Positions 19,512-23,866 of a stretch of 64,000 nucleotides of DNA are shown here, one piece after another. Position 1 is the first letter of the stretch, and every line of letters starts with the position of its first letter. The stretch is taken from contig NZ_CP121017.1 of assembly GCF_041468085.1 (NCBI RefSeq), positions 3,227,676-3,291,675 of the forward strand, read 5' to 3'. Under the pieces are notes generated by a model. It saw only the letters and a list, made by a program, of their open reading frames with translations. It searched no databases and was not told where the DNA came from. This stretch comes from Tistrella mobilis (lineage in GTDB: Bacteria > Pseudomonadota > Alphaproteobacteria > Tistrellales > Tistrellaceae). The translations under genes were made by a program, and so were the position numbers.

Positions 19512-19629
19512 CGCCTCAGGAAGCCCGCGTCAGGGGCGTGGGAGTGTGCTATCCAAAAGCGTTCGGCCGGATGAAAGCGTCTGGCCGGATCAACAGGCCG
19601 ACACAGTCAGGCGGACGGGACGGACGGGC

Positions 19630-20280
19630 ATGGTGACGTTTTCGATGAAGCGGGCAGGCTGCGCGGAGCATCGCCGGACCGCGCGTGGCCGGGGCAGCGA
19701 TTTTGTCGCCTTCTTTCGGGCCTGGATGGGCGATCCGCTCCGGGTCGCCTCGGTCATGCCCTCGGGCGAGGGGCTCGCACGGCTGATCACATCCGAAGTG
19801 ACGCCCGCGACCGGCCCGGTTCTGGAACTCGGCCCCGGCACCGGCGTGTTCACCCGGGCGCTGCTCGCGCGCGGCGTGGCCGAACGCGACCTCACCCTGA
19901 TCGAATTCGGCGCCGAGTTCGCCGGCATGCTGACCCGGCGCTTCCCCGAGGCCCGCATCGTGCAGGCCGATGCGGCGAAGCTGAAACAGTGCCGGCTTTA
20001 TGACGCACCGATGGCCGGCGCCGTGATCAGCGGTCTGCCAGTGCTGTCGATGCCCGCCCGCAAGGTGATGGCGATCCTGACCGGCGCCTTCGGCTATCTG
20101 AAGCCGGGCGGCGCCTTCTATCAGTTCACCTACGGACCGCGCTGCCCGATCTCGCGCCGGATCCTGGACCGGCTGGGCCTGAAGGCGGTCAAGATCGGCT
20201 CCACCCGTCGCAACCTGCCGCCAGCCTCGGTCTATCGGATCACCCGGCGGCCGGTGCTGAAATCAGCGGTTGCGGTCTGA
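19630..20280 (+). CDS. Phospholipid N-methyltransferase (Pmt-like)
   Basis: A SAM-dependent methyltransferase of about 216 residues resembling the rhizobial-type phosphatidylethanolamine N-methyltransferase. Motif I is VLELGPGTGVFTRALL; FVAFFRAW near the start, the GAVISGLPVLSMP region and the C-terminal FTYGP segment match that family. It would make methylated phospholipids towards phosphatidylcholine. The start is uncertain (ATG 19546, 19630 or 19648). The last 18 bp overlap the 3' end of the convergent epimerase-AnmK gene. Confidence 0.75.
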   Translation: MVTFSMKRAGCAEHRRTARGRGSDFVAFFRAWMGDPLRVASVMPSGEGLARLITSEVTPATGPVLELGPGTGVFTRALLARGVAERDLTLIEFGAEFAGMLTRRFPEARIVQADAAKLKQCRLYDAPMAGAVISGLPVLSMPARKVMAILTGAFGYLKPGGAFYQFTYGPRCPISRRILDRLGLKAVKIGSTRRNLPPASVYRITRRPVLKSAVAV

Positions 20281-22407
20281 TACCTGCCCCGCCATCCGTG
20301 TCCCCGCCACCTGTGCCCGGTGCAGCGCCCCGCCGGTGACGGCACCACCGGTGGCGGTGGTCGAGGCATAGGAGAGGGCGAGCCCGTCGGCGGCCCGAAC
20401 CGCCAGCACCGCGAAGGCCTGGGCTTCCAGCGCATCCCCGTCGAGACCGACCTCGTCCACCGGCGCGACCGGCAGGTTCGACCGCGCGGCAATGGCGGCG
20501 CGCAAAGTGCGGTTGTGGCGGCCGCCACCGGCCAGCAGCACCCGTTCCGGCGGTTCGGCACCGGCGGCGACCGCCAGGCTGAGGCCGCGGGCGACCGCAC
20601 GGGCGGTGAACTGCGTCAGCGTTGCCGCCGCATCGGCCAGCGGCAGATCCGCCACCAGATCGAGTGCCAGGGCGAAACGGTCGCGATCGAGCGATTTGGG
20701 CGGCGGACGGTCGAAGAACGGATCGGCCAGAAGCCGGTCGAGGATGGCTTCGTCGGCGGTGCCCCCCGCCGCCGTACCGCCATCCTGATCGAAGGCATGG
20801 CCGGTCCGCCGGCGCATCAGATCGTCGATCAGCGCCCCGCCCGGCCCGCAATCGAAAGCGAGCAACCCGCCATCGACGCCGATGAAGGTGAGATTGGCGA
20901 CCCCGCCGATGTTCAGCACCGCAACCGGCGGCGCCACACCCGCCCAGGCCATCATCGCCCGGTGAACCACCGGCACCAGCGGCGCGCCCTCCCCGCCCCG
21001 GGCCATGTCGGCGCGGCGGAAATCGGAAACCGTGTCGATGCCGGTCAGGGCGGCGAGCCTTGCGCCGTCGGCCAGCTGCACGGTGATGCCCTCGTCCGGC
21101 AGATGCAGCACGGTCTGGCCGTGGAAGCCGATCAGCCGGACATGGGGGGCGATCTCCGGCACCGTTTTCAGCAGCGCGGTCACAGCTTCGGCCTGGGCGC
21201 GGGTCAACGCCGCCTCGGCCCGGGCCGCATCGACCAGCGGCGCACGGCCGCCCAGCAGCCGGGACAGCGCCTCGCGCAGATCCGCCGGATAGGGCCGGAA
21301 CAGGGTCGGCCCGAATCCGGTGATGTCGACCCCGTCGGTTTCGACCAGCGCGGCATCGATACCGTCGAGCGAGGTGCCGCTCATCAACCCCACCGCCCAA
21401 ACCGGCCGGCGGCGCGGCGCGCCGTCATCGGCGGATGCCGCGATGACGGTGGGTTCGGGATCGGCCGGAACCGGCCGGCCGGCCATGCCGGCTGCGATGG
21501 CGACCAGCGATGGCGGCGCGGGGAAGCCCAGCGCGCGGGCGCGTGACCAGTCCTGTGCCGCCGGCCAGCCGGTGACGGCGGCGGTGGGCGCCGCTTCGGG
21601 CGCAACGGTGATCAGGCCCGCCGCCTCTGGCCCGGCGACGCGGGCGACGGCGCCCACCAGATCCCCCGCCCTGATGGTGCGCGACGGCAAGGCCACCAGC
21701 GGGTCGCCATCCAGCGCCGCAGCCGGCAGACCCGCCAGGCGGATCAACCCGTCGACGGTGGAGGCGACATCGGAGACCGCGAGTTTCAGCCCCGCCGGCA
21801 GCGGCAGCACCACCGCCTCTCCGGCAGGTGCTGCCGACAGCACCCGCGCCAGGCGGGCCACCGCGCTGGTGCCGCCGGCGGCGGCCGGCCGGTCGATGAT
21901 GCTGGCGATGCGGGCGATGCGCGGATCGACCACGCCGCGGCGGCCGGCATCGGCGAGCAGCAGCTCGGCGGCGGCCTTGGTCGCGCCATAGGTGGTGGCC
22001 GGGCGCGGCGCATCGTCGTCGCCCGCGGTCGCCCGCGCCCGCCGCCCGCCATGCACCGAGATGGTCGAAGCGAAGACCAGCCGGGTCTGCCGGCCGCTCT
22101 CTGCAATCGCCGCGATCAGGTGGCGGACGGCATCGAGGTTGAGTGCGGCCGCGGCATCGGGATCGGCCTCACCCGCAGGCGTGTTGCCGGCGGCCAGATG
22201 GAAGATCAGATCGGCACCATCCCCGATCAGCGCCCGCACGGCATCGGCGCGGGTGAGATCGACGGCAGGCGTGCCACCGCGGGCCACCTCGTCCAGCCGG
22301 TCGATCGGCCGGGCGGTGCCGTCGATCAGGATCGTGCCCGCCGTCTTCAGCTGCCCGACCAGCGCCCGGCCGATGAAGCCGGTCGCCCCGGTCACGATGA
22401 TGCGCAT
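20263..22407 (-). CDS. Fusion: DenD-like NAD-dependent epimerase + anhydro-MurNAc kinase (AnmK)
   Basis: One uninterrupted 714-residue frame. Residues 1 to about 320 form an extended SDR like D-erythronate dehydrogenase/epimerases: TGATGFIGRAL at the N-terminus, FHLAAG, SSTIS-like ASTISVHG, and catalytic YGATK. Residues about 335-714 are AnmK: VGLMSGTSLDGID (Met at 342), GFHGQTVLH, LNIGGVANLT and FDCGPGGALIDD, which phosphorylates and opens 1,6-anhydro-MurNAc in peptidoglycan recycling. No ATG, GTG or TTG with a ribosome site was seen just before the kinase domain. A standalone anmK divergent from tyrS is the usual layout, so the fusion is unusual. Confidence 0.88.
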   Translation of the reverse strand: MRIIVTGATGFIGRALVGQLKTAGTILIDGTARPIDRLDEVARGGTPAVDLTRADAVRALIGDGADLIFHLAAGNTPAGEADPDAAAALNLDAVRHLIAAIAESGRQTRLVFASTISVHGGRRARATAGDDDAPRPATTYGATKAAAELLLADAGRRGVVDPRIARIASIIDRPAAAGGTSAVARLARVLSAAPAGEAVVLPLPAGLKLAVSDVASTVDGLIRLAGLPAAALDGDPLVALPSRTIRAGDLVGAVARVAGPEAAGLITVAPEAAPTAAVTGWPAAQDWSRARALGFPAPPSLVAIAAGMAGRPVPADPEPTVIAASADDGAPRRRPVWAVGLMSGTSLDGIDAALVETDGVDITGFGPTLFRPYPADLREALSRLLGGRAPLVDAARAEAALTRAQAEAVTALLKTVPEIAPHVRLIGFHGQTVLHLPDEGITVQLADGARLAALTGIDTVSDFRRADMARGGEGAPLVPVVHRAMMAWAGVAPPVAVLNIGGVANLTFIGVDGGLLAFDCGPGGALIDDLMRRRTGHAFDQDGGTAAGGTADEAILDRLLADPFFDRPPPKSLDRDRFALALDLVADLPLADAAATLTQFTARAVARGLSLAVAAGAEPPERVLLAGGGRHNRTLRAAIAARSNLPVAPVDEVGLDGDALEAQAFAVLAVRAADGLALSYASTTATGGAVTGGALHRAQVAGTRMAGQVSDRNR

Positions 22408-22468
22408 CGGTCACGTCCCCCTGAGACTGCGTTGATCTGCCTGACGATGGATCGTCATCCCGCGGCCG

Positions 22469-22513
22469 GTCATCTGGCGGCCCGTCATCTGGCGGCCCGT
22501 CATCTGGCGGTGC
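22469..22513 (+). repeat. Three 15-bp tandem repeats upstream of tyrS
   Basis: GTCATCTGGCGGCCC is repeated twice exactly and once with a changed end, between the divergent fusion gene and tyrS. It may lie in the 5' leader or promoter of tyrS. No function can be assigned. Confidence 0.85.
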
Positions 22514-22609: not shown

Positions 22610-23866
22610 ATGACCGATCGCCGCTACGTGTCCGACTTCGTGCGCGTAATGGTCGAGCGCGGCTATCTCCACCAGGCAACCGACCTGGAGGGGCTGGACG
22701 AGCGCTTGAACCAGGGCACGGTCGCCGGCTATATCGGCTTCGACTGCACGGCGAAGAGCCTGCATGTCGGCAGCCTGGTGCAGATCATGATGCTGCGCTG
22801 GCTGCAGAAGACCGGCCACAAGCCGATCGTGCTGCTGGGTGGTGGCACCACCCGGATCGGTGATCCGACCGGCCGCGACGAGGCCCGCAAGATGCTCGAC
22901 GATGCCGCCATCGCCGAGAACATGGCCGGCATCCGCCAGGTCTTCGACAAGTTCGTGCAGTTCGGCGACGGCGCCACCGATGCGGTGATGGTCAACAATG
23001 CCGACTGGCTGGACGGGCTGGGCTATATCTCGTTCCTGCGCGACTATGGCCGGCACTTCTCGGTCAACCGCATGCTGACCTTCGACTCGGTCAAGCTCCG
23101 GCTGGAGCGCGAGCAGCCGATGTCGTTCCTGGAATTCAATTACATGATCCTCCAGGCCTACGACTTCCTGGAACTGTCGCGCCGGCAGAACTGCCTGCTG
23201 CAGATGGGCGGCTCGGACCAGTGGGGCAACATCATCAACGGCGTGGAGCTGGGCCGGCGGGTGGACGAGCGCGGCCTGTTCGGCCTGACCTCGCCGCTGA
23301 TCACCCTGGCCTCGGGCCAGAAGATGGGCAAGACCGCGGGCGGCGCGGTCTGGCTGAATGCCGAGATGCTGTCGGCCTATGACTACTGGCAGTTCTGGCG
23401 CAACACCGCCGATGCCGATGTCGGCCGCTTCCTGAGGCTGTTCACCGAACTGCCGCTGGACGAGATCGCCCGGCTGGAAGCCTTGGGCGGCGCCGAGATC
23501 AACGAGGCCAAGAAGATCCTGGCCCACGAGGCGACCAGGATGGCGCATGGCGAAGAGGCGGCGCTCTCCGCCGCCGAAACCGCCCGCCGCACCTTTGAGG
23601 AAGGCGCCGCCGGCGAGGATCTGCCGGTGATCGTCATCCCCGCCGCGGAACTGGATGCCGGCATCCCGGCCTTCGAACTCTTCGCCCGCGCCGGCCTCGC
23701 CCCCAGCCGCAAGGAGGCCCGCCGCACCATCCAGGGCGGCGGCGCCCGCCTGAACGGCGAAAAGGTCGAGGACGAACAGCAGCCGATCACCACGGCCTGG
23801 CTCTCCGACGGCCAGATCAAGCTGTCGGCCGGCCGCAAGCGCCACGCGCTGGTGAAGATCGGCTGA
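22610..23866 (+). CDS. tyrS: Tyrosyl-tRNA synthetase
   Basis: A 418-residue class I synthetase. The HIGH-like motif is LHVGSL (about 52-57), tyrosine-pocket residues are in YMILQAYDF and GGSDQWGN, the KMSKS-like motif is KMGKT (about 239-243), and a C-terminal S4 RNA-binding domain ([21 protein letters not shown]) is present. Length is standard. It is divergent from the epimerase-AnmK fusion and is followed by a clear intrinsic terminator. Confidence 0.97.

Follow-up and report, generated by a model that had tools for sequence, protein, structure and literature searches.

The closest described counterparts of the protein treated here belong to two families. By sequence, and by fold through the uncharacterized Agrobacterium structure 2hrz, the SDR family nearest to its N-terminal half is D-erythronate dehydrogenase (DenD, NCBIfam model NF043036), with which it has the nucleotide-binding motif and YxxxK in common. 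DenD oxidizes D-erythronate to 2-oxo-tetronate (PMC10580937). The C-terminal half compares with AnmK, the family of Pfam model PF03702 and NCBIfam equivalog model NF007141, represented among solved structures by 3qbw and 3qbx of P. aeruginosa. In Caulobacter, as in the genome studied here, MurQ is missing; there the MurU route is used, which as given in PMC13046382 includes no redox step. In the window, by which we mean the whole stretch of 64,000 nucleotides of Tistrella mobilis DNA that was analysed, both kinds of domain are encoded by one gene (Table 1).

Table 1. Location of the fusion gene, its parts and adjoining features in the window
Feature	Coordinates	Strand	Remarks
Fused SDR-AnmK gene	20263..22407	minus	714 aa; ATG start; stop included
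Extended-SDR domain, residues 1-310	21478..22407	minus	GATGFIG at 7-13; T115, Y140, K144
Linker, residues 311-334	21406..21477	minus	pLDDT below 50 at 316-332
AnmK domain, residues 335-698	20314..21405	minus	GLMSGTSLDG; D519; GPGG in place of GPGN
Variable C-terminal tail, residues 699-714	20266..20313	minus	pLDDT below 50 from residue 679 onward
Shine-Dalgarno-like AGGGGG upstream of the full-length ATG	22417..22422	minus	GGAGGG in two other Tistrella
tyrS, divergent neighbour of the fusion gene	22610..23866	plus	Single match per Tistrella genome (three genomes)
15-bp tandem repeat	22453..22510		CGTCATCTGGCGGCC, 3.9 copies; in the intergenic stretch that separates tyrS from the fusion gene
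Methyltransferase-like ORF (named by eye)	19546..20280	plus	Shares 18 bp (20263..20280) with the 3' end of the fusion gene, the two genes meeting tail to tail

A confirmed in-frame fusion

The preliminary description of this locus had proposed that a single frame joins the SDR to AnmK, and had raised the concern of a stop or frameshift near the junction. The gene is exactly one open reading frame, no interruption occurs at the junction, and the frame is free of stops in all three Tistrella genomes, at 715, 715 and 710 codons. Because the same stop-free frame is found in three of three genomes, sequencing error is very unlikely, and the in-frame SDR-AnmK fusion is confirmed as real. Pfam model PF01370 (Epimerase) scores 77.7 bits on residues 3-170, with a cut-off of 20.9, and PF03702 scores 286.5 bits on residues 339-695, with a cut-off of 24. 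A search of the genome found the fusion to be its only AnmK match. The best named match, among the matches listed, is from plasmid pTM3 of Tistrella mobilis KA081020-065, with 96% identity over residues 1-714. In that strain tyrS (its only match) and the fusion gene lie on the 1.13-Mb pTM3, while in the genome of the window they lie on a 4.9-Mb contig; an essential gene therefore sits on a record named plasmid.

Comparison of the three Tistrella strains gives a dN/dS of 0.10-0.14 over residues 1-300 and of 0.05-0.08 over residues 335-700. For the linker it is 0.16 in two strain comparisons, with no change in the third. Purifying selection acts on both halves, as measured over the short time span that separates three close strains (dS 0.09-0.22). 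For the last 14 codons of the fusion, dN/dS is 2.5, 1.1 and 0.35, each calculated from 9-14 codons, and the tail-to-tail overlap with the methyltransferase-like ORF sits beside these weakly constrained codons. At the other end of the gene, the copy number of the upstream 15-bp repeat varies among the three Tistrella, as judged by eye.

The full-length ATG follows a Shine-Dalgarno-like stretch in all three Tistrella, with predicted pairing of -9.4, -10.4 and -10.4 kcal/mol; the background has a median of -4.6 to -4.7 kcal/mol and a 5% level of -8.6 to -8.8 kcal/mol. A start signal at the junction had been said to be absent, and this holds for production of an intact AnmK, but not absolutely. 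ATG 308 (-5.0 kcal/mol, about the background median), GTG 313 and GTG 339 (-4.0 to -5.2 kcal/mol) have no Shine-Dalgarno sequence. TTG 341, present in two of the three strains (that of the window and T. mobilis), pairs at -9.0 kcal/mol, and ATG 342, present in all three, at -10.0 kcal/mol. These two values lie beyond the 5% background level because both codons are directly preceded by a G-rich stretch able to pair with the anti-Shine-Dalgarno, and a start at either would delete AnmK strand 1 (residues 336-342 in the model), so the earlier statement is right for an intact AnmK only. The two pairings might be taken to mean that two proteins are made, with AnmK arising by internal initiation and the joined frame being a functionless accident. 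Against that account stand the placement of the G-rich stretch directly against the two codons, the loss of strand 1, the lack of a Shine-Dalgarno sequence at the other three candidate starts, and the retention of frame, linker and stop-free reading in every strain; we regard it as very improbable.

The whole-length structural model has a pTM of 0.48, and its confidence is low not only in the linker but also in parts of AnmK (437-441, 463-476, and 679 on). It was built from alignment A4, in which the rows are correctly aligned. Nine of the 23 rows are extra copies of the three Tistrella sequences, included as guides for the aligner; the model is therefore shallow, and the packing of the domains is unreadable from it. 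Mixed alignments A1 (as judged by its low SDR identities), A3 and A5 went unused, since SDR rows had been placed on the AnmK region. The low pLDDT of the linker and the low pTM suggest a flexible linker that tethers two separately folded halves. With the halves so tethered, the fusion would mainly couple their expression and position, rather than build one active site.

Taxonomic distribution and probable origin

AnmK is present in 300 of 385 alphaproteobacterial genomes, and an SDR of the fused kind is found in at least 93 of the 385 (E-value 1e-15 or better), a lower bound because at most five candidates were scored per genome. Among 101 AnmK-bearing loci, some of which share a genome and three of which have less than 1 kb upstream, nine also contain an SDR of this kind, and each of the nine comes from one of the three Tistrella; the other 92 have no SDR of this kind within the fetched stretch. 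Seventy of 96 relatives match the whole-protein query, with both halves covered in the three Tistrella only. Since the 96 included no genome marked as belonging to the same family or the same order as Tistrella, the fusion could predate the genus. A search of 398 genomes from across the phylum gave 145 matches at 1e-60, and both halves are matched in the fusion's own genome only; neither of the two other Tistrella appears in this set, and they are taken as not drawn. Plasmid records returned 422 matches, one of which, pTM3, has coverage of at least 80%. A scan of genome contigs confirmed at least 85 relatives, of which 80 were kept, and pTM3 alone has whole-length cover among the matches listed.

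Several candidates for additional fusions were rejected. Eight other long frames around AnmK (L092 to L099, among the matches listed) include none with an SDR match at 1e-10. In five (L092, L093, L096, L098 and L099) AnmK is preceded by a non-SDR stretch, which in L093 and L098 resembles, by eye, tyrS read on the wrong strand; for L094, L095 and L097 the motif pattern gave no match. One further match (G506), which contains four stops and extends to residue 161, is an unfused AnmK next to a divergent tyrS, with the SDR absent. No description of an SDR-AnmK fusion was found in titles and abstract openings of the open literature, and a word search of the main text of one gene-fusion survey (PMC4921024) found no occurrence of anhydro, murQ, muramic or epimerase. 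As judged from the sequences searched, the two-domain SDR-AnmK protein is known so far only from Tistrella.

The surroundings of anmK in 24 other alphaproteobacterial genomes suggest how the arrangement may have arisen. In 16 of them 65-365 bp separate a divergent tyrS from the first AnmK residue that aligns, and anmK stands by itself, unfused; the other eight have no tyrS in the fetched stretch. The corresponding tyrS-anmK gap in Tistrella measures 1187-1217 bp and is occupied by the SDR domain. Three of the nearest free-standing AnmK proteins among the matches listed (L002, L177 and L178, 57% identity) also adjoin tyrS, without an SDR. The SDR was probably inserted between tyrS and anmK in an ancestor of the three Tistrella. 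A phylogenetic tree groups the fused SDR with a free-standing Tistrella paralogue and with two other SDRs, L113 and L140, at only 93/71 support; duplication of the SDR within the genus is not claimed.

The AnmK half and its pathway

The AnmK half looks ordinary in sequence comparisons. Like members of the family, it scores above the curated cut-off (NF007141, 420.8 bits on the C-terminal half against 352), keeps GTSLDG and the Asp of FDxGPG, and has the family fold: structural matches to its model include 3qbx, 3qbw and 8bre, all of AnmK, as well as levoglucosan kinase, with a TMt of 0.87 for 3qbx_A. It departs from 89 relatives at five of 72 conserved columns, and the AnmK tree gives it a stem branch of 0.69 changes per column. 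D519 occupies the catalytic-Asp column and, counted along the alignment, corresponds to the catalytic Asp182 of P. aeruginosa AnmK. What sets the Tistrella protein apart from the family is its N-terminal SDR and Gly524, which turns GPGN into GPGG; 84 of the 89 relatives have Asn at this position, and five likewise do not. That the catalytic motifs of AnmK are kept, as had been proposed, is thus borne out, although GPGN reads GPGG.

The AnmK half would carry out the ordinary reaction, in which 1,6-anhydro-MurNAc, ATP and water yield MurNAc-6-phosphate, and its product would feed the AmgK/MurU route. No MurQ scores over the cut-off in the genome (best 34 bits of 302), and a NagZ-family protein passes its own (252.9 against 207). 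Relatives of AmgK and MurU are encoded side by side, adjoining TsaE, and each best matches its own family, with scores below the curated cut-offs (262.7 of 500 and 225.6 of 370, respectively). Because the MurU route has no redox step in the account cited above, no known reaction of the route needs an SDR. No sugar-pathway genes were recognized, by eye, among the ORFs neighbouring the fusion.

The SDR half and its relation to the kinase

The SDR half is nearest to the DenD model, at 168.9 bits with a cut-off of 325. Five free-standing SDRs were scanned with this model: L107 (362.7) and L074 (336.7) pass, while L113 (290.4), L140 (303.8) and a Tistrella paralogue (238.7) fall under the cut-off. 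Of 67 columns conserved in at least 85% of 59 free-standing relatives, the fused SDR deviates at 29; an earlier count against 21 relatives found deviations at 22 of 69, one of them a gap. Leave-one-out deviations for the free-standing SDRs have a median of 2; the two Tistrella paralogues reach 16 and 15, L113 also reaches 16, and the maximum is 30 for L170. The alignment shows that the RLP, RPGxPN and REPL stretches have been lost; these presumably have a role in substrate recognition. Unlike DenD, then, the fused SDR lies under the family cut-off, lacks these three stretches, and is joined to a different kinase family. By eye, no DenD-type cluster (DUF1537/OtnK kinase, OtnI/OtnC) was recognized among the ORFs at 15-28 kb of the window. 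The label DenD-like epimerase, in the functional sense of the preliminary description, finds no support in these comparisons.

The highest non-fusion identity to the fused SDR, 43% among at most five candidates per genome, belongs to the free-standing Tistrella paralogue L129:6030-7007, and by E-value L107 is the better match. The paralogue is unfused and retains more of the family signature than the fused SDR (16 deviations in 71 columns). It adjoins a flavin-monooxygenase-like ORF, named by eye, and not an acid-sugar cluster. The alphaproteobacterial SDR L170:180-1046 has moved as far from the family signature as has the fused SDR (30 of 69).

The modelled SDR domain has a pLDDT of 94.2, and its best solved match is 2hrz (Z 38.6, rmsd 1.6, 304 residues aligned, 30% identity). 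Next come L-threonine dehydrogenases, at Z 32-36; SDR-type L-threonine 3-dehydrogenase has only the fold in common with it, at 18-25% identity in the listed rows. Residues G7, G10 and G13 of GxxGxxG and Y140 and K144 of YxxxK are kept. Thr115 lies at a column with Ser in 55 of 57 relatives and Thr in two, which by analogy with GalE is the catalytic Ser/Thr position. The proposal that both domains keep their catalytic motifs therefore stands for the AnmK motifs, GxxGxxG and YxxxK, but in the SDR the Ser is replaced by Thr115 and the signature of the DenD family is gone. An acidic residue at the end of SDR strand 2 is typical of NAD users. This position holds Asp in 57 of 57 relatives and a gap in the fusion in the MAFFT alignment, while a phmmer alignment with 2hrz puts D36 nearby. 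With the strand-2 register uncertain, cofactor binding could be altered or lost, and a switch from NAD to NADP was dropped from consideration.

Such changes raise the alternative that the SDR half is a pseudoenzyme that stabilizes, dimerizes or regulates AnmK, perhaps as a sensor of the nicotinamide pool. The 29 lost positions, the possible loss of the strand-2 Asp, and a stem branch of 3.42 changes per column in the SDR tree, against 0.69 for AnmK, all speak for it. The SDR branch length, however, has reached saturation, and the composition check is failed by the fusion rows; free-standing L170 is equally divergent; and none of the three strains has lost Y140, K144, GxxGxxG or the hydroxyl residue at 115, under the low dN/dS given above for residues 1-300. 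We consider a pseudoenzyme unlikely, though a serious competing account. The SDR half is likely to be catalytically active, a folded and probably nicotinamide-dependent oxidoreductase whose substrate would have shifted away from D-erythronate-like acids. Activity of the AnmK half is the safer prediction of the two.

Gene fusions often unite steps of one pathway, so the SDR might instead act on the substrate or product of AnmK (anhydro-MurNAc, MurNAc-6-phosphate or a related lactyl sugar), opening a new branch of peptidoglycan recycling. The SDR family signature has changed, and the fold matches include 6dnt (Z 29.7), the structure of an extended SDR in the presence of UDP-MurNAc. Set against this are the MurU route, which needs no redox chemistry, the neighbourhood in which no sugar gene was recognized by eye, and the 92 AnmK loci without such an SDR in the fetched stretch. 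We judge it improbable that the SDR acts on these sugars, and slightly more so that the protein is a bifunctional enzyme whose SDR oxidizes, reduces or epimerizes anhydro-MurNAc, MurNAc-6-phosphate or a sibling lactyl sugar in an unrecognized branch of recycling. The new step on the anhydro-MurNAc route suggested earlier is possible but unsupported, and channelling along that route, the other earlier suggestion, may or may not take place.

The explanation we favour, and hold as a whole to be somewhat probable from sequence comparison and modelling, is a Tistrella-only fusion that arose by ancestral insertion of an SDR, in which an ordinary AnmK and an SDR of shifted substrate are tethered to each other. 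The fusion appears to be lineage-specific, with an altered oxidoreductase, and the best-hit label D-erythronate dehydrogenase can mislead. If both activities do share a pathway, the protein would bring to cell-wall sugar recycling a redox step that is absent from the MurQ and MurU routes, the two named in the literature consulted. Even if they do not, it is a natural case in which an enzyme domain was taken up into a fusion and altered greatly, next to a kinase half that has hardly changed.
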